25,048 nucleotides of DNA. Source: a virus. Below, piece after piece: positions 2 to 22,968 of this stretch. Positions within the stretch are counted from its first letter, which is position 1. Every line of letters starts with the position of its first letter. Position numbers and translations under genes: made by a program. The notes under the pieces were generated by a model that made no database searches, was not told the DNA's origin, and saw nothing but the letters and a program-made list of their open reading frames with translations. Location: positions 1 to 25,048 of IMG/VR virus record IMGVR_UViG_3300009130_000125; one strand, given 5' to 3'.

Positions 2-754
2 TATGGTTCACAATGCTACTCACCCGATACTTGTATATGGATCCCTAAAGATATGAATATTAGATATTCTTCATCAAGATTGTTTCAAGCCACCTCACCG
101 ACTGGTGAGGTGCATATACATATATCAGTACCAACATTCTCCAAAATGTTTGATCTAACACCTAATGGCGTTACAAGATGCCTAAGGGGTGAGCGACCAC
201 ACCACAAGCAGTGGAAATTTGAGCTGTTAGACGAATCCAAACACCCACGCCTAGGGTTTACGACACCCGTCGACCAGCTACAGATTCTTGTTGATAAGAT
301 CCGTACCAAGAGTTATGATCGTCGATGGAAGGTGTCTGCATGGAATCCAGCAGACTTTGACAAGATGGCACTAGTACCTTGCCACACCGATTTCGTTTGC
401 TACATGTCGGGTTGTGGCACATACCTAGACCTAGAGTTCAACATGCGATCTCAAGATCTACCACTGGGCAACCCTAACAACTGTATTTTCTATGCAGTAC
501 TACTAACACTACTGGCGAGAGAGGGTGGTATGACACCACGGTATCTCAAACATAACATGACCGATGTACACCTGTACGAGGATCAAATTGAGACCGCCAA
601 GGAACAACTCAAGAGACCACTAGTACCACACAAACCGACATTCGAATTATTGGATGACAAATTTGATGACATCTTTAATTGGACACATGAGTGCTATAAA
701 ATCGAAGGGTATGAGCACTCAGGTAAACTAACATACCCTAGACCCGCTATCTAA
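2..754 (+). CDS. thyA: Thymidylate synthase C-terminal part, fused in frame to an HNH-type homing endonuclease tail (5' end outside window)
   Basis: The frame is open from the window edge, so the gene begins upstream; the first ATG is at 53. Numbering from that ATG, residues about 74-233 match the C-terminal half of thymidylate synthase, which methylates dUMP to dTMP using methylene-tetrahydrofolate. Visible landmarks are the RR phosphate-binding pair (90-91), VSAWN, the catalytic PCH (Cys110), RS-D (132-135), the Asn of the NPNN segment and DVHLY (His173, Tyr175); the C-terminus ends in PAI. The usual RSCD cysteine is replaced (RSQD). Residues before about 57, including the codons before ATG53 (SPDTCIWIP), resemble the C-terminus of phage HNH homing endonucleases with a NUMOD1-like helix-turn-helix (FSKMFDLTPNGVTRCL, HHKQWKF). 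The first ~110 residues of the synthase are missing here. A YqeY-like gene starts 2 nt after the stop. Synthase assignment is firm; the endonuclease part is by motif resemblance. Confidence 0.9.
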   Translation, partial: YGSQCYSPDTCIWIPKDMNIRYSSSRLFQATSPTGEVHIHISVPTFSKMFDLTPNGVTRCLRGERPHHKQWKFELLDESKHPRLGFTTPVDQLQILVDKIRTKSYDRRWKVSAWNPADFDKMALVPCHTDFVCYMSGCGTYLDLEFNMRSQDLPLGNPNNCIFYAVLLTLLAREGGMTPRYLKHNMTDVHLYEDQIETAKEQLKRPLVPHKPTFELLDDKFDDIFNWTHECYKIEGYEHSGKLTYPRPAI

Positions 755-755
755 T

Positions 756-1196
756 ATGAACACAATAGACAAAATAAACAGCGACCTGAAGTTCGCCATG
801 AAGAACAAGGACACCACGGTTTTAACTACACTCCGTGATGTGAAGGCGGCTATCACCAAATTCGAAAAGACTGGTGGTACGGTAGATGATAATAAAGTTA
901 TCGACATCGTGAAGAAACAGTCAAAACAGCGTGAGGATTCCATTAAGGCGTTCACCGAGGGTGGGCGAACCGATCTTGCTGACAAAGAACAAATGGAGTT
1001 GGACATCCTATCCAAATACCTCCCTGAACAGCTTAGTGAGTCTGATGTGATCAAAGTGGTCGAGGACATCATTGAGCGCCTTGGTGCCACCACTATGAAG
1101 GATATGGGTAAGGTTATGGGAGCCTGTAAGGGTGAACTAGGTGGTAAAGCTGACGGTGGTGTTATCGCCAAGTCTGTGAAACAACTCCTCTCCTAG
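756..1196 (+). CDS. GatB/YqeY domain-like protein
   Basis: The 146-residue product matches the YqeY family in length and pattern: an N-terminal helix (MNTIDKINSDLKFAMKNKD), TLRDVKAAI, KKQSKQREDSIKAF, the KYLPEQLSE segment near residue 90, and the C-terminal MKDMGKVMGA followed by GKADGG. The same fold occurs as the tRNA-binding tail of GatB, the amidotransferase subunit acting on mischarged tRNA. What free-standing YqeY does is not well established, and no catalytic residues are known to me. The gene lies 2 nt after thyA and 8 nt before the DUF4326 gene, so it is probably cotranscribed with both. No Shine-Dalgarno sequence precedes the ATG, suggesting translational coupling. A role in phage-modified translation is only a guess. 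Confidence 0.85.
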   Translation: MNTIDKINSDLKFAMKNKDTTVLTTLRDVKAAITKFEKTGGTVDDNKVIDIVKKQSKQREDSIKAFTEGGRTDLADKEQMELDILSKYLPEQLSESDVIKVVEDIIERLGATTMKDMGKVMGACKGELGGKADGGVIAKSVKQLLS

Positions 1197-2652: not shown

Positions 2653-4512
2653 ATTTCTAGTGTCACAAAGATCCTGTGGAGTAATTCTCCTACGGTTATT
2701 ATCAATCCACTCCTCAGCATCATCCCATGTTTCCTCGTCGACCCAACCCGCTAAGATATCCCAAGGGCTCAAGAATTCATTGAATCTTACACAATTCTTC
2801 CACTTGATCTCATCGAGTTCGTTACTAACCGAAGTGTTCTCTTTGAGTATACTCGCAACATCCAATTCCACCGAATCCATGACCTCGCGGTTTACTATAC
2901 CTGTTTCCATTAGGGCTACATCATATCGTGTAGACTTGAATCCTGATGGTCTCATGAGGAACATTTTATCCACTCTCTCCTTGAACGATATGGGGACTGT
3001 GGTGGGAAATTCTATGCTCATATCCTTAAGAGAAATAGTGTTCAATTGACGAGTCTGTGGTCTGGTTGATATCAGTAGATCGGTGATGTTAGCCTTTAGA
3101 TAGCCCCCCTCATCCATACCTTGCTCACCACGCCTAGAACGGTAGTTACCACTGTCGGCACCTATAAGGAATGGGGTTCGGTTACTAGTTTTATAATAAA
3201 CCAATCCCGACTCTTCCATCCTATCAACCACAACCCCATCGATAATCAATTCACCTACGCCATTGATAGTATCATAACCAAACACGATATTGTGTTCACC
3301 ACCATCTAAGCTGGTTACATCTGAGGTCAATTCCCTGAAACTTACAGTATCATCACAGGGATCGATAAGTGCGATCTTAGCCACAATTCTAGAATTGTTG
3401 GCGTCCACCGTACTAAATCTCTTCCTAGTGTTAAACCCTGTAAAATCACCATTGGTGAGTAGATTCATGGAACCATAGTCGGTGTCAGGGTAAATACTAA
3501 CATCAAGCAGATTAGAAACCAATTCGCACCCATTAGTGATACCATTAGTACTCAACCTCAGTAGGTAATTGAATTCATTCAAAATGACCCAAACACTGAT
3601 ATCTCCGTCGAATTTGGTAAACCCTATACAAGCCTTGTGAGTATTCTCCTTGATGGTATCACAAACGGCATCATCCGCACATGGTTTGATGTTGTGGAAT
3701 ACTCTATCAAATTCAATAACACCGAAAGTATTAATTTTAAGAAGTCTATTATTGGAGTGTACCACCCATATATTATCATCCATGTCGATGTTTAACGTAT
3801 TAGCATTAGAGCCAACGAAGAACCACGGTTTATCATTCTTATAAATGTTCACACCCCATAGGTTATAGTAGTTACCTTCGGAATCCGTAACCATTGGAGT
3901 ACCATCGGAGGAGAAAAATGTATTGATGGTATCATCCGCCATCACAACCATGTTATTATGTTCAGGGCGTGTGGGCGATAGACTAGATATGAAATCCCCA
4001 TTAGGGCTATACTTATGGATCATTTTAGATGCCGTATCCATGAAGTAAATATTACCATATTTATCAGGTACAATAACACTCACCACAGAGTCGGCTACAA
4101 TAGAAAATGGTTCACCTACGGGTATATTATTACCATCAAACTTATGACACAACAAATTAGCTTGATCGAAGTAATACTTGTTACCAAATTGGTCAATAAC
4201 GTAGGCAGTGAATTCAGCATCAACATTGGTGATAGACCTCTGTGATATCAACCCCCCGAAATGGTTCAGGTTGAACAAATGATCATTACCTGAGTCTATC
4301 AAGGTAATATCAGGGTTATCCTCAAATCCTTTGTTATAGAATATACCATACCCCTGACCATTGTAGTTACCAATAATCTGGGAGGAACCATCATAATTCC
4401 AATTCTCAAGATCCAGAGTCAAATTGACATACACACCCTTCTCGTTATAAAGGGCGGGATCCGTAGGGTACTGGACATACCTAGTACCGTCTAATATAAT
4501 TTTATTATCCAT
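2644..4512 (-). CDS. Large virion protein with NHL/propeller-like repeats and a LamG-like domain
   Basis: The 622-residue product is acidic and rich in beta-strand patterns. Residues about 100-300 carry NHL/SMP-30-like propeller repeats (VIDQFGNKYYF, VPDKYGNIYFMD, VTDSEGNYYNL, DMDDNIWVV followed by LLKI). Residues about 340-480 look like a concanavalin/LamG-type domain (GEHNIVFGYDTINGVGEL, then ELIIDGVVVDRM). The C-terminus is rich in Trp, Asp and Glu. It begins 8 nt inside the end of the gp6-like gene, so it is cotranscribed and probably translationally coupled. Its place beside baseplate genes suggests a baseplate-peripheral or receptor-contacting protein; that role is inference. It lacks both a Shine-Dalgarno sequence and a good late motif before its ATG. 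Confidence 0.8.
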   Translation of the reverse strand: MDNKIILDGTRYVQYPTDPALYNEKGVYVNLTLDLENWNYDGSSQIIGNYNGQGYGIFYNKGFEDNPDITLIDSGNDHLFNLNHFGGLISQRSITNVDAEFTAYVIDQFGNKYYFDQANLLCHKFDGNNIPVGEPFSIVADSVVSVIVPDKYGNIYFMDTASKMIHKYSPNGDFISSLSPTRPEHNNMVVMADDTINTFFSSDGTPMVTDSEGNYYNLWGVNIYKNDKPWFFVGSNANTLNIDMDDNIWVVHSNNRLLKINTFGVIEFDRVFHNIKPCADDAVCDTIKENTHKACIGFTKFDGDISVWVILNEFNYLLRLSTNGITNGCELVSNLLDVSIYPDTDYGSMNLLTNGDFTGFNTRKRFSTVDANNSRIVAKIALIDPCDDTVSFRELTSDVTSLDGGEHNIVFGYDTINGVGELIIDGVVVDRMEESGLVYYKTSNRTPFLIGADSGNYRSRRGEQGMDEGGYLKANITDLLISTRPQTRQLNTISLKDMSIEFPTTVPISFKERVDKMFLMRPSGFKSTRYDVALMETGIVNREVMDSVELDVASILKENTSVSNELDEIKWKNCVRFNEFLSPWDILAGWVDEETWDDAEEWIDNNRRRITPQDLCDTRNDN

Positions 4513-17685: not shown

Positions 17686-17698
17686 ACATGTATTTATA
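17686..17698 (-). promoter_or_regulatory. Perfect T4-type late promoter motif TATAAATA-N5-ATG
   Basis: TATAAATA at 17691-17698 equals the T4 late -10 consensus and is followed by CATGT and ATG 17685. It contains the TAA stop of the homing-endonuclease gene. Confidence 0.7.
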
Positions 17699-19556
17699 AA
17701 TTTACGCATTTATCAACATCATATTCAAACTTGTAATTACCACAATCGAATATTCTAAAATATCCCCTACTCTCCATTATCTGTCTCTCGGTCTTATCTT
17801 TATCGAACCCCTGTTCCACCAACTTGTGCTTTGCAAAATTGTATCTGTGGTATCGTCTTAAATTTTTAGTCCAGAAGTAGTTGGGTTTAGTGCGATGAAC
17901 CAACTCAAATCCTAAAGTCTCGTACAAACCACCGTCACTATATCTCATATCTGCGAATGTGATCACCTTACGAGGTTTATAGGTTCTTAGAAAATATTTA
18001 TATAATTTCGATGCACCCCCTACTACGGTGGTGTTGAGTTTATTACAGAATCTTATCATCTCAAATTCACCCTCCATACCCTTGGAACCCAAAGCAATTC
18101 TCGGTGGAGAGAAAGTCATAATAGACACCAACTCACCATCCAATTTCAGACCCAACTTAATCTTGGCTCTACATGATCCTTGGAGGTGATTTTTATCGCA
18201 GAAATCCGAACTCTCTGCTGGGGTCAATTCCACAACCTTGGTGTTTCTAGCATACACTCTTCGATCCACTGATCCTAGTTTACTACTTATCACCGATTTC
18301 ACGATTTCCTTCTTAAAGGCCCACTCATCTTCGAATATATGTATTAGCTGTATACCCATATTACTACATGCTATGGTCTTCTGTAGGTGATAATCCATAC
18401 CCCTGAATTTCTCAGAATGCCAGTACAATCCATTGAACTCAATAGCTAGGTTTGATTGTCCAACGAATATATCCAGTTCCTTGTTACCGTCTATGATGGT
18501 CTTATTGGCACTTGTCACACCACTTATGGATTCCACATATTCCAATAGTTCCGTCTCGGCTAAAGATCTTGAGGAATTACACCTAGGACATCCATACCCC
18601 TCGGTTAATCTCTGGGATCGTATTCTGAACTTACCGTGCTCATTACAGATAACTTCCACATCAACGTCATACCCACCGTATTCGACATTAGTTAAGTCGT
18701 ACCTGTCACCGTGTACCTTCTTGACATTATCCAAGTATTGATCATTGGTCAGCATCATAGATACAGACTTGGCTTCATTGCTACACTTTTTACACCCGCT
18801 ATGTTTGTGTATGTGATCAGACAGTCTACATTTGAAAACACCATGGTCTGGGCAAATGATACTAACCACATCCTTGGATTTCACACCACTTTTTATGAGG
18901 GAGTAGTCATACTTACCACCATGAACCTCCACACAATCAGCTATGTATTCATCCCTACTCTTCTTAGGGGCTTTATTAGAATCCCACGCAGTACATTTAC
19001 ACTTGTACTGAGCTGATGCCGTAGGGGTACGCCTAAATACACCCCTACATGTGGTACAGAGTATGGAACACTCGGTAGACATACCTTGATACCCGCCAAT
19101 TATACGCCACCCATTCTCCCTCACCGAATCTTCGGCAAATTTCAATGGCTTTACTTTATCCTGATTCTTTTTTTCAGAATGACATTTAGGACACCCACCA
19201 CCCTCCTTATGGAGGTAAACTTTGGTAGTAAAACTACCGTGGTGGGGACACACCACTTCGATATCCTGTCGACTGTTAGCAATTTTATCGATTCTACTAT
19301 AGTCATATGTATCACCATGGCGATCTCTAAACTTATCAATATGGTAATCCAGTGGTTTAAGAGAAGCACACTTCTTACATCCAAAACCTTTCGCATGGGA
19401 ACTAGCCAACTGGTCAAACTCCCCGTGTATTGGACATTTAATACGCATAACAGTGGAGGAATTTTTAAATTCCGAGAGATTGAGATACTCATATTTATCC
19501 CCGTGTTTCCCTTTAGATCTCTCCAAGAAAACCTCCACTGTCATTCGCTTAGCCAT
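17694..19556 (-). CDS. Homing-endonuclease-like protein: zinc-finger array plus Vsr-like nuclease domain
   Basis: The 620-residue product has an N-terminal array of treble-clef-like modules of type CP-x-HG-x(n)-C-x2-C: Cys41/His44-Cys60/Cys63, Cys103/His106-Cys122/Cys125, a divergent module at 163-188, Cys235/His238-Cys255/Cys258 and Cys304/His307-Cys323/Cys326. Several are preceded by a VHG-x-KYDY-like phrase. Residues about 330-430 resemble a Vsr-like/PD-(D/E)XK nuclease (ETELLEYV, LDIFV with Asp362, AIEFNGLYWHSE with Glu373 and His380, IHIFEDEW). The C-terminal 190 residues (ARNTKVVEL to YKFEYDV) form a further domain typical of phage proteins of this kind. It starts 2 nt after nrdB, a gene often targeted by phage mobile endonucleases. 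No Shine-Dalgarno sequence is present. Homing activity is inference. Confidence 0.8.
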   Translation of the reverse strand: MAKRMTVEVFLERSKGKHGDKYEYLNLSEFKNSSTVMRIKCPIHGEFDQLASSHAKGFGCKKCASLKPLDYHIDKFRDRHGDTYDYSRIDKIANSRQDIEVVCPHHGSFTTKVYLHKEGGGCPKCHSEKKNQDKVKPLKFAEDSVRENGWRIIGGYQGMSTECSILCTTCRGVFRRTPTASAQYKCKCTAWDSNKAPKKSRDEYIADCVEVHGGKYDYSLIKSGVKSKDVVSIICPDHGVFKCRLSDHIHKHSGCKKCSNEAKSVSMMLTNDQYLDNVKKVHGDRYDLTNVEYGGYDVDVEVICNEHGKFRIRSQRLTEGYGCPRCNSSRSLAETELLEYVESISGVTSANKTIIDGNKELDIFVGQSNLAIEFNGLYWHSEKFRGMDYHLQKTIACSNMGIQLIHIFEDEWAFKKEIVKSVISSKLGSVDRRVYARNTKVVELTPAESSDFCDKNHLQGSCRAKIKLGLKLDGELVSIMTFSPPRIALGSKGMEGEFEMIRFCNKLNTTVVGGASKLYKYFLRTYKPRKVITFADMRYSDGGLYETLGFELVHRTKPNYFWTKNLRRYHRYNFAKHKLVEQGFDKDKTERQIMESRGYFRIFDCGNYKFEYDVDKCVNL

Positions 19557-20706: not shown

Positions 20707-22968
20707 TTAAAGTGAACAACCACCACCATCACAACCTGAGGCTTCAGTGGTTGCATGATCCACGTCACCATCGAAGGTGTTGTGGTAATAGAATGTCCTC
20801 CAACCTAGTTTAGTAGCTGTGAGAATATCTTGGATGATCCTAGCCTGTGGAATCACACCACCTTGGAATTTTTGAGGATTGTAACTCATATTACCACTAA
20901 CTCCCATATCACACCACTTGGTAATAACCGCCACACATTTGATGTGACCATCATTATTCTCTTGGTCAAAAAGTCTAACGTAGTTATCCTTATTCTTTTT
21001 GTAATTTGGTGCCACTACGATGGTGGTAGCGGTCTTAGAGGTCTTGTATGAGATAAGATCGCGTACTGGATCAATACCAGATGTACTACCCTGAATCACA
21101 CTAGATGCCTCACAAGGCATGAAGCATGAGACTGTACAGTTACGCATACCGTGCTTGAGTACTTCGCCCTCCAGAGCTTTCCAATCCTTCTTGTGCTCAG
21201 GTGGTACAATGGCGTCTACGTTTTTGTTGTAGCGATCAACTGGCATGATACCTTGTGAGTATTTAGAGGCTGCGAAATCTTCACAAGCACCTCGTTCCTT
21301 AGCCAATTCGACAGAAGCCTCGATGAGGTAGTATTGCTGCTTCTCCAAGAAGTCAGAAATCACTTGTGGTGCCTCTGGGGACTCATGATGCAAACCTTGG
21401 TTTGCGAGCCACCCTGCAAGGTTGCTCACACCAACACCGATAGATCTCTTCCTCTTTGCGAATCGCTCACAGGCGGGTACAGCATACTCTTGGATATCAA
21501 TGATATTATCGAGCATTCTTACAACCTTGAAACAAGTATCTCGGTGATCCTCATCACTCTCAATTTCAAGCATGTTGATAGCAGAGAGAACACAAACACC
21601 AGTTTCAGCCTCAGGATCTCCTGTAAATCGTTCAGGTTTAAGGGGAAATGTTACCTCTTGGCACAAGTTATATCCCTCGACCTTATCAGCCCAAGCTGAG
21701 TAACTATTGGCTTCATCGATATTCATCAAGTAGATTCGACCCGTTTCACTCCTCTGTTTAGCGAACAAGGAGAAGAAACGCTCTGCGGTGATTTTCTTGG
21801 CATCTGGGTTATCAGCCTCCCAAGATTCATATACCTCATTGAAGTGTGGCAGTCCGAATGCGGCGTATACCTCTGGTGCCATCTTCTCACTACATAATGT
21901 GATGGAACCGCCTGAAAGTAGACGCTTGTAGAAAATATTGGATACACAAATTGAATAATCCAAATATTCAACCTTACGTTCCTCGGTCATCAAGTTATCC
22001 TTGAGTTGTAGGATGGACTCAATCTCTGGGTGGAAAATGTTGAAGGTTACGGTACCCGCACCTCGACGTGCACCACCCTGCTGACAGGAGTGGATAGTGG
22101 ATTGGAACATCTTAAGCCAAGGGATCACACCAGTGTGTAGTGTCTCACCATTGTTGATAGGCTCATTGATACCACGAAGTCGTGATGCAATCAGACCAAT
22201 ACCATACTTGTCACAGGTCACCATACCACTAGCGGTATTTGCCGCGAATAGTGAACCTTTGGTGTCTTCGATGTCGATAATACAACAAGAAGAGTAACTC
22301 TTGGTATTTGTTCGAGCCCCCGCCACAATTGGCGTGGATAGGTTTGGTTTAAACTTCGAGAATTTGTCGTAGAACGCCTTGACGGTGTTAACACGCTTAC
22401 GTGGCTTCTCGTTCACACATAGAGCCATAGCTTGGAGGATGTATGCAAACTGTGGGGTCTCAATAATCTCACCAGTGGATCGATCTTGAACTAGGTACTT
22501 CTCCATCATCTGAACAATACCACCGTACTGGAACTTAAAGTCCCTGTCATGACAAATGAATTCGTCAATCTTGTTGATCTGACTTCTTGAGTAGATCTTA
22601 AGCAAATCCCCTGAATAGAATCCTCGCTTAACACCACTCTTTAGATGATCGTACAATTTAGGGGCGTTCTTACCACCCCAAACCTCTTTACGAAGTTTGT
22701 AGTTTAAGAGGCTTGCCGCAACTTTAGCATAGTTTACCTCTTGATCAATTAGACTTGCTGCCGATTCTACGAGAATTTTATGAATATCACTTGATTTGAT
22801 CCCATTGAAAATATTCAACTTAGCATTGTACAATATATGATCAGGAACCACATCCTCAACTCCCTCACACGCCCATTCCAACATTTTGTTTATCTTATCA
22901 ATTCGGAATGTGTCGGTCACTCCTTCTCTCTTTACAATTTCAATCTTGTGTTCTTCCATATCAGTCAT
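20707..22968 (-). CDS. nrdA: Class Ia-type ribonucleotide reductase large subunit (R1)
   Basis: The 753-residue product is the catalytic subunit that reduces NDPs to dNDPs. An N-terminal ATP-cone (IEIVKREGVTDTFRIDKINK, about 9-90) indicates allosteric activity control. The redox cysteines are Cys228 (SYSSCC) and Cys459 (GVCVLSAIN); the thiyl-radical cysteine is Cys436 in NLCQE. The C-terminal shuttle pair is Cys746 and Cys751 (SGCDGGGCSL). Length matches E. coli NrdA (761). ATG 22968 lies 3 nt after the -10 box, so a second in-frame ATG 9 nt on (MEEHKIEI) may be the one used. Its own terminator separates it from nrdB, unlike the usual single nrdAB transcript. Confidence 0.96.
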   Translation of the reverse strand: MTDMEEHKIEIVKREGVTDTFRIDKINKMLEWACEGVEDVVPDHILYNAKLNIFNGIKSSDIHKILVESAASLIDQEVNYAKVAASLLNYKLRKEVWGGKNAPKLYDHLKSGVKRGFYSGDLLKIYSRSQINKIDEFICHDRDFKFQYGGIVQMMEKYLVQDRSTGEIIETPQFAYILQAMALCVNEKPRKRVNTVKAFYDKFSKFKPNLSTPIVAGARTNTKSYSSCCIIDIEDTKGSLFAANTASGMVTCDKYGIGLIASRLRGINEPINNGETLHTGVIPWLKMFQSTIHSCQQGGARRGAGTVTFNIFHPEIESILQLKDNLMTEERKVEYLDYSICVSNIFYKRLLSGGSITLCSEKMAPEVYAAFGLPHFNEVYESWEADNPDAKKITAERFFSLFAKQRSETGRIYLMNIDEANSYSAWADKVEGYNLCQEVTFPLKPERFTGDPEAETGVCVLSAINMLEIESDEDHRDTCFKVVRMLDNIIDIQEYAVPACERFAKRKRSIGVGVSNLAGWLANQGLHHESPEAPQVISDFLEKQQYYLIEASVELAKERGACEDFAASKYSQGIMPVDRYNKNVDAIVPPEHKKDWKALEGEVLKHGMRNCTVSCFMPCEASSVIQGSTSGIDPVRDLISYKTSKTATTIVVAPNYKKNKDNYVRLFDQENNDGHIKCVAVITKWCDMGVSGNMSYNPQKFQGGVIPQARIIQDILTATKLGWRTFYYHNTFDGDVDHATTEASGCDGGGCSL

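Follow-up and report, generated by a model that had tools for sequence, protein, structure and literature searches.

An HNH homing endonuclease domain inserted in frame in phage thymidylate synthase, probably without splicing

The gene at the left end of the viral contig analyzed here is, with high probability, a phage thymidylate synthase (TS) gene that has been invaded, in frame, by an HNH homing domain of the phrog_2081/953 type—an insertion that appears to need no splicing and to be tolerated by the enzyme that harbors it. The window, by which we mean the whole stretch of DNA analyzed, is the entire viral record of 25,048 bases. Its left end falls within the gene, so the 5′ part of the gene cannot be read here, and the architecture was worked out by computation from the visible 3′ part together with relatives in which the gene is complete.

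The survival of homing endonucleases in genes is usually put down to introns or inteins that are removed. Protein architecture alone appears to suffice in this case, and the host is an enzyme of central nucleotide metabolism. The phages concerned include Bacillus Herelleviridae, Klebsiella jumbo phages, Vibrio phages and that of the window itself, which, to judge by its ribonucleotide reductase, may be a distant T4-like myovirus. Half of the protein is overlooked when such genes are annotated as ‘thymidylate synthase’ alone or as ‘HNH endonuclease’ alone.

THE GENE AT THE LEFT END OF THE WINDOW

The reading frame is open from the first bases of the contig through to its stop codon (Table 1), and the HNH half and the TS half are both real and share this single frame. 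In a profile search with the fragment alone, window residues 2–81 match phrog_2081 ‘HNH endonuclease’ (E 2.8e-16), and PF00303 (thymidylate synthase) covers residues 88–245 (E 1e-40). An earlier note on this DNA had claimed that an HNH tail reads in frame into TS, and these matches, in this open frame, bear it out. The note had also placed the start of the TS region, VDQLQ, near residue 73 and about 35 residues before the catalytic Cys. The first figure stands if residues are counted from the ATG at position 53, VDQLQ being residue 90 of the whole open frame; the second is close to the actual distance, which is 37 residues before Cys127. Its observation that the junction (...FELLDESKHPRLGFTTPVDQLQ...) has no intein-type His-Asn followed by Cys, Ser or Thr was correct.

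Table 1. Features of the TS–HNH gene in the window
Feature	Position	Strand	Basis
Open frame, HNH-family tail into TS C-terminal part (TS-C)	2..754	+	ORF reading
C-terminal part of inserted HNH-family domain (domain start off the contig)	2..238	+	phrog_2081
End of HNH core, CYSPDTCIWIPKDMNIRY, with YS..TC...N motif	14..67	+	aligned to relatives' LDKDxxxxxYSxxTC...N
NUMOD-like DNA-binding subdomain of insert (predicted)	92..223	+	PF22083 I-HmuI_NUMOD-like, residues 31-74
3′ linker between insert and TS, LDESKHPRLGFTTP	227..268	+	sequence comparison
TS C-terminal part	263..751	+	PF00303 profile 107-262, E 1e-40
TS catalytic Cys codon (PCH, residue 127)	380..382	+	alignment with TS relatives
Stop codon of TS	752-754	+	

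Within the insert tail, the LDKD that precedes YS..TC...N in relatives falls off the contig, and the PF22083 match is under the Pfam curated cut-off (E 3.1e-5). Sequence comparison, together with a structural model of the relative L020, indicates that the 3′ linker LDESKHPRLGFTTP is the counterpart of a stalk strand described below, the second of two, which is NNYRYGTTFNQI in L020; RLGFTTPVDQL of the window linker matches YRYGTTFNQI there. The catalytic residues that mark a protein as TS—the Cys, R-S-x-D, N and D-x-H-x-Y—are present in the visible C-terminal part, with the motifs RS.D..LG...N and DVHLY retained in the alignment.

The closest matches to the insert tail, L020 (45.6% over 79 aa) and L018 (41%), are both inserted in TS, and free-standing members of the family rank behind them. 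An exact search of viral contigs with the first 44 bases of the window found no overlapping contig. By analogy with its relatives, we infer that the phage of the window has the N-terminal part of TS (TS-N) upstream in the same frame.

RELATIVES AND INSERTION SITES

Phage proteins that match across the window junction were found by tblastn of the window protein. Two scans of IMG/VR then added 18 further distinct fused genes, and a scan of GTDB added 2 more. Altogether there are 24 distinct genes, the window included, from isolate phages, viral metagenome contigs and two GTDB contigs; L102 and the window are cut at the 5′ end. Each complete relative is a single continuous ORF that reads TS-N, HNH, TS-C: 564 aa in Bacillus phage 015DV002, for example, 517 aa in Klebsiella jumbo phages KP13-7/phiKp_21, and 477 aa in Vibrio phages D69/D181/D148. 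All 24 genes are in frame and none of the 24 inserts contains a stop, in a collection of relatives that was sought by insert and junction patterns. No TS of the ThyA type other than the fused gene is present in the complete phages 015DV002, KP13-7 and D69.

Two loops of TS have been entered. Site A lies between YGxxWR and (I/V)DQL and holds the insert in 19 of the 24 genes, that of the window among them. Site B, about 20 residues earlier, lies between IW.eW and LGPxYG and is used by five (L021, L035, L086, L098 and L108). The TS part of L028, L029 and L181 belongs to a divergent TS-like family. Nearly all of the fused genes retain the catalytic motifs of TS, and the match of the 015DV002 protein to phrog_2081 is a strong one (E 7e-43).

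The HNH core, too, is kept in nearly all of the fused genes, and is altered in L100. It takes the form L-D-[K/R]-[D/E] ... YS..TC ... N, the first stretch of which is absent from the window, and in it the first canonical His is replaced by Lys or Arg. The catalytic base is in doubt, therefore, since LDKD stands where a canonical HNH has His. Cleavage of DNA by the HNH domain and TS activity of the fused protein are both presumed. Only in a minority of the fused genes is there, ahead of the HNH core, a plausible internal start that has a Shine-Dalgarno-like motif, so the nuclease would usually be produced within TS and in no other form. On this account, the idea that it is expressed separately as a general rule was rejected.

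Some of the relatives have peculiarities of their own. Just 3′ of the fused gene in L028 (4115–4423) is a 103-aa remnant of a TS C-terminus, as if an earlier TS end had been displaced. The TS-C of L025, L052, L086, L097, L102 and L108 has, before QRS, an extra loop that is ~30–50 residues long (e.g. TRELSLEER...PTREISLMWNQRS), and a comparable break is found in TS without HNH in L153 and L154. Other host enzymes were sought in eight ORFs of the family whose flanks were unusual or whose matches were strong, and among them the HNH reads in frame into another domain only in L082. There (2977–3999), a decayed HNH copy is followed by an HNH domain of this type that continues in frame into a match to phrog_1238 (phosphoheptose isomerase); it is perhaps another unspliced fusion.

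TOLERANCE OF THE INSERT BY TS

AlphaFold2 models were made of one protein for each site, L020 for site A (535 aa; pLDDT 91.7, pTM 0.81) and L035 for site B (462 aa; pLDDT 93.7, pTM 0.84). The predicted TS fold is complete in both. Superimposed on solved TS structures (E. coli/Mtb ThyA), L020 gives Z 39.5 with an rmsd of 1.1 Å over 263 residues and L035 gives Z 40.0 with 1.1 Å over 259, and the structural alignment spans both sides of the insert.

The HNH domain is held outside the body of TS in these models. In L020 the insert is predicted to be joined to TS by two short strands, residues 116–118 (VKV) and 369–371 (YRY), that form a kind of stalk, and a similar pair of motifs can be picked out by eye in other site A proteins: KVVKVPPRI/YRYALP in 015DV002 and EVVKIKNRI/YRYELS in L029. 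Matches in fold searches with the models were filled by TS, and a phmmer comparison of the insert with PDB sequences gave no match.

MOBILITY

Bacillus phage 015DV002 carries the insert, whereas 015DV004, which is nearly identical to it, is empty at this place. Their flanks are ~98–100% identical, but the ~200 nt directly 3′ of the insert are only ~60–78% identical, after which identity returns to 96–100%. KP13-7, which is filled, and Muenster, which is empty, are 96% and 92% identical outside, and ~50–65% on both sides of the insert. Divergent tracts adjoining the insert are as expected of homing accompanied by co-conversion, if that is how the insert arrived; ordinary recombination can also give rise to them.

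Trees of the insert and of TS are of the quick kind, their branches long and their sampling mixed, and depict a pattern rather than a resolved history: in the first, inserted domains stand mostly apart from free-standing ones (3 label changes versus 21 when shuffled), and in the second, presence of the insert is scattered (18 versus 22.6). The window was left unplaced in both, its row covering 18% of the columns in the insert alignment and being subject to long-branch attraction in that of TS.

The course of events might be as follows. The insert, which would have no splicing apparatus, would sit in a loop of TS that is exposed to solvent and lies between YGxxWR and the (I/V)DQL helix. Its two ends would meet as a short two-strand stalk, and because they do, TS could fold as the normal enzyme with the nuclease domain outside. 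When a co-infecting phage supplies an empty TS allele, the HNH domain would nick or cut it, and repair would most likely copy the insert, together with some of the TS sequence that flanks it, into the empty allele. An element of this kind might escape being selected out because TS tolerates it.

We incline, if only by a little, to the broader view that these genes represent a distinct class of homing elements, and a widespread one, in which the HNH domain is mounted by a two-strand stalk in surface loops of TS. One protein would then act as enzyme and as homing endonuclease, and living phages would show every stage from invasion and spread through gene conversion to decay and domestication. 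On that view, the elements would be constructed so that the enzyme tolerates them, and would for that reason have no need of splicing. In this way it becomes testable whether an unspliced mobile element can be neutral to the enzyme that hosts it, and the near-identical filled and empty phage pairs can be used for direct crosses.

A DECAYED REMNANT IN RB49-TYPE PHAGES

RB49, a laboratory phage, offers a view of what may remain after domestication. The td gene of this phage and its Krischvirus relatives (410 aa) carries, at site A, a shortened and decayed remnant of the domain, in which LDKD has become LDSD, and YS..TC has become LA..TT (LAPDTT). The remnant was found in 58 of 58 matching Krischvirus records and is under purifying selection, dN/dS being about 0.15 between RB49 and LF73P4. 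The td gene that bears it is the only ThyA-type TS in RB49. The passages in which two surveys count the homing elements of RB49 (PMC1524935, PMC2993671) do not mention the td remnant.

ALTERNATIVE EXPLANATIONS

For the junction in the window the earlier note had offered two options, a true protein fusion or a group I intron with an ORF that continues into the second exon. The former is supported in sharper form, as an insertion rather than an end-to-end fusion, TS-N being upstream in frame in all complete relatives; the latter is not supported. HNH/NUMOD endonucleases are often encoded by introns, and TS genes can host insertions that bear stops, T4 td being one example. In another, Bacillus phage KKP_4048 (L010:1501–2683), ~296 inserted bases that contain stops in all frames interrupt TS after ...CKLYQR, and in the TS of Yucatan (L016), a close relative, a stop codon stands at this very position. 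Even so, that the inserts are self-splicing introns, of group I or another kind, with an ORF in frame with both exons, is very improbable. The covariance-model search that the earlier note had proposed gave no group I match at E<=5 in the first 1.2 kb of the window, and none at E<=1 in the scanned isolate and metagenomic fused loci; the intron of T4 nrdB, run as a positive control in one of the same scans, was detected at E 1.8e-5. This null result is supportive rather than conclusive, since the intron-like insertion of KKP_4048 likewise has no Rfam match at E<=1. Conservation of the insert as protein would seem to be the stronger evidence. Between D69 and L017, amino acid identity is 60% in the insert and 45% in TS, nucleotide changes are concentrated at third codon positions, and conservation at the amino acid level continues across insert and linkers in the TS frame. 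Domain and linkers leave only about 50–160 nt for an intron core, moreover, and the inserts are free of stops. The split in KKP_4048 lies downstream of the Cys, and this is consistent with a window site different from that of td. An intein of a degenerate or new kind, spliced out of the translated protein, would be in frame on both sides, scattered in distribution and flanked by co-conversion-like tracts just as the insert is, but we give this explanation hardly any credence, either. No Hint/intein Pfam domain was matched in the complete fused proteins, and the relatives' junctions have no conserved Cys/Ser start or His-Asn end; the insert is wholly taken up by its N-domain, HNH core and NUMOD-like part; and the TS fold is predicted to be complete with the insert in place. 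It seems likely that the insert is not spliced at all, and that what is finally made is the fused protein.

The remaining alternatives concern the integrity of the window gene and the nature of the insert. With the upstream part of the gene out of sight, the phage could in principle have a split TS, with TS-N encoded separately and the window gene comprising HNH and TS-C only. Wherever the 5′ sequence of a relative is complete, however, TS-N precedes the insert in frame, and the insert tail of the window is closest to two such continuous genes, all of which makes a split a very long shot. An assembly chimera comes to mind when a junction sits at the end of a metagenomic contig, but isolate phages sequenced independently show the same order, type of junction and frame, and against a pseudogene stand the catalytic motifs retained in TS; we find either idea next to incredible. 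Finally, the insert might not be, or might never have been, a mobile endonuclease, but rather a fixed accessory domain of TS, such as an autoregulator that binds DNA or mRNA. The decayed remnant, kept in every Krischvirus record and under purifying selection, speaks for this. Against it, nearly all the other genes have an intact HNH core, inserts are scattered over TS lineages, and near-identical phages differ in their presence or absence. An accessory domain fits Krischvirus, then, but not the remaining cases, and as a general account we regard it as unlikely.

COMPARISON WITH KNOWN SYSTEMS

In-frame invasion of TS by an HNH domain that is not spliced out, the explanation we prefer, resembles several known arrangements without coinciding with any of those considered below. 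We found no description of an HNH insertion in TS in the open-access literature. Closest among published examples are insertions into the DNA methylases of actinophages. One of these is an additional homing endonuclease, of the LAGLIDADG type, reported not to be associated with the methylase's intein (PMC9957025, 2023; PMC11855218, 2025). Another is the ShiLan domain, which is in frame but conceals an HNH gene that is read in a different frame, and which is proposed to be unspliced; its distribution is patchy and there is evidence of its transfer between divergent methylases (PMC9957025, PMC11855218).

Like the TS inserts, these methylase insertions are in the frame of the host, and neither intein nor intron splicing can be detected in ShiLan. 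The TS family presents the same combination: an endonuclease insert in frame, no splicing signals as far as sequence can tell, and a patchy distribution. The host enzyme is a non-essential methylase in the LAGLIDADG and ShiLan cases, whereas here it is TS. The LAGLIDADG nuclease belongs to another family than HNH, and the ShiLan HNH is out of the host frame whereas that of the TS insert is within it and is co-translated. The inserts in TS, in contrast to those in methylases, occupy two loops, occur in very diverse phage groups, and have left a decayed remnant fixed in RB49-type phages. Free-standing HNH proteins of phrog_2081/953/374 are composed of the same parts as the TS inserts—N-domain, W..M..RC.. 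core, LDKD..YS..TC..N and NUMOD-like tail—but have genes of their own, and the inserted ones mostly cluster separately.

The td gene of T4 contains a ribozyme, a group I intron, with the GIY-YIG enzyme I-TevI. Splicing of td and regulation of I-TevI have been described (PMC2988022). Both td and the present family are cases of a mobile endonuclease element within a phage TS gene, but the HNH inserts have no detected ribozyme and lie upstream of the catalytic Cys. Inteins, similarly, are mobile inserts, co-translated in frame within conserved enzymes; the HNH inserts differ from them in that neither a Hint splicing domain nor splice-junction residues were found. In phage Aeh1, insertion of MobE splits nrdA, producing a gene in pieces. 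There, too, an enzyme of nucleotide metabolism tolerates an HNH element that is unspliced, but NrdA is divided into two polypeptides, whereas TS with its insert is a continuous chain.

OTHER GENES IN THE WINDOW

Immediately 3′ of TS in the window, at 756–1196 (+), is a gene for a YqeY-like (GatB/YqeY) protein. A 620-aa ORF at 17694–19556 (−) matches DUF723 and, weakly, the nuclease MTES_1575. It overlaps the end of an nrdB-like gene, and looks like another free-standing homing endonuclease that adjoins a gene of nucleotide metabolism. The ribonucleotide reductase large subunit is encoded at 20707–22968 (−), and its nearest relatives, at about 44%, are those of cyanophages S-RIM50 and P-SSM2.
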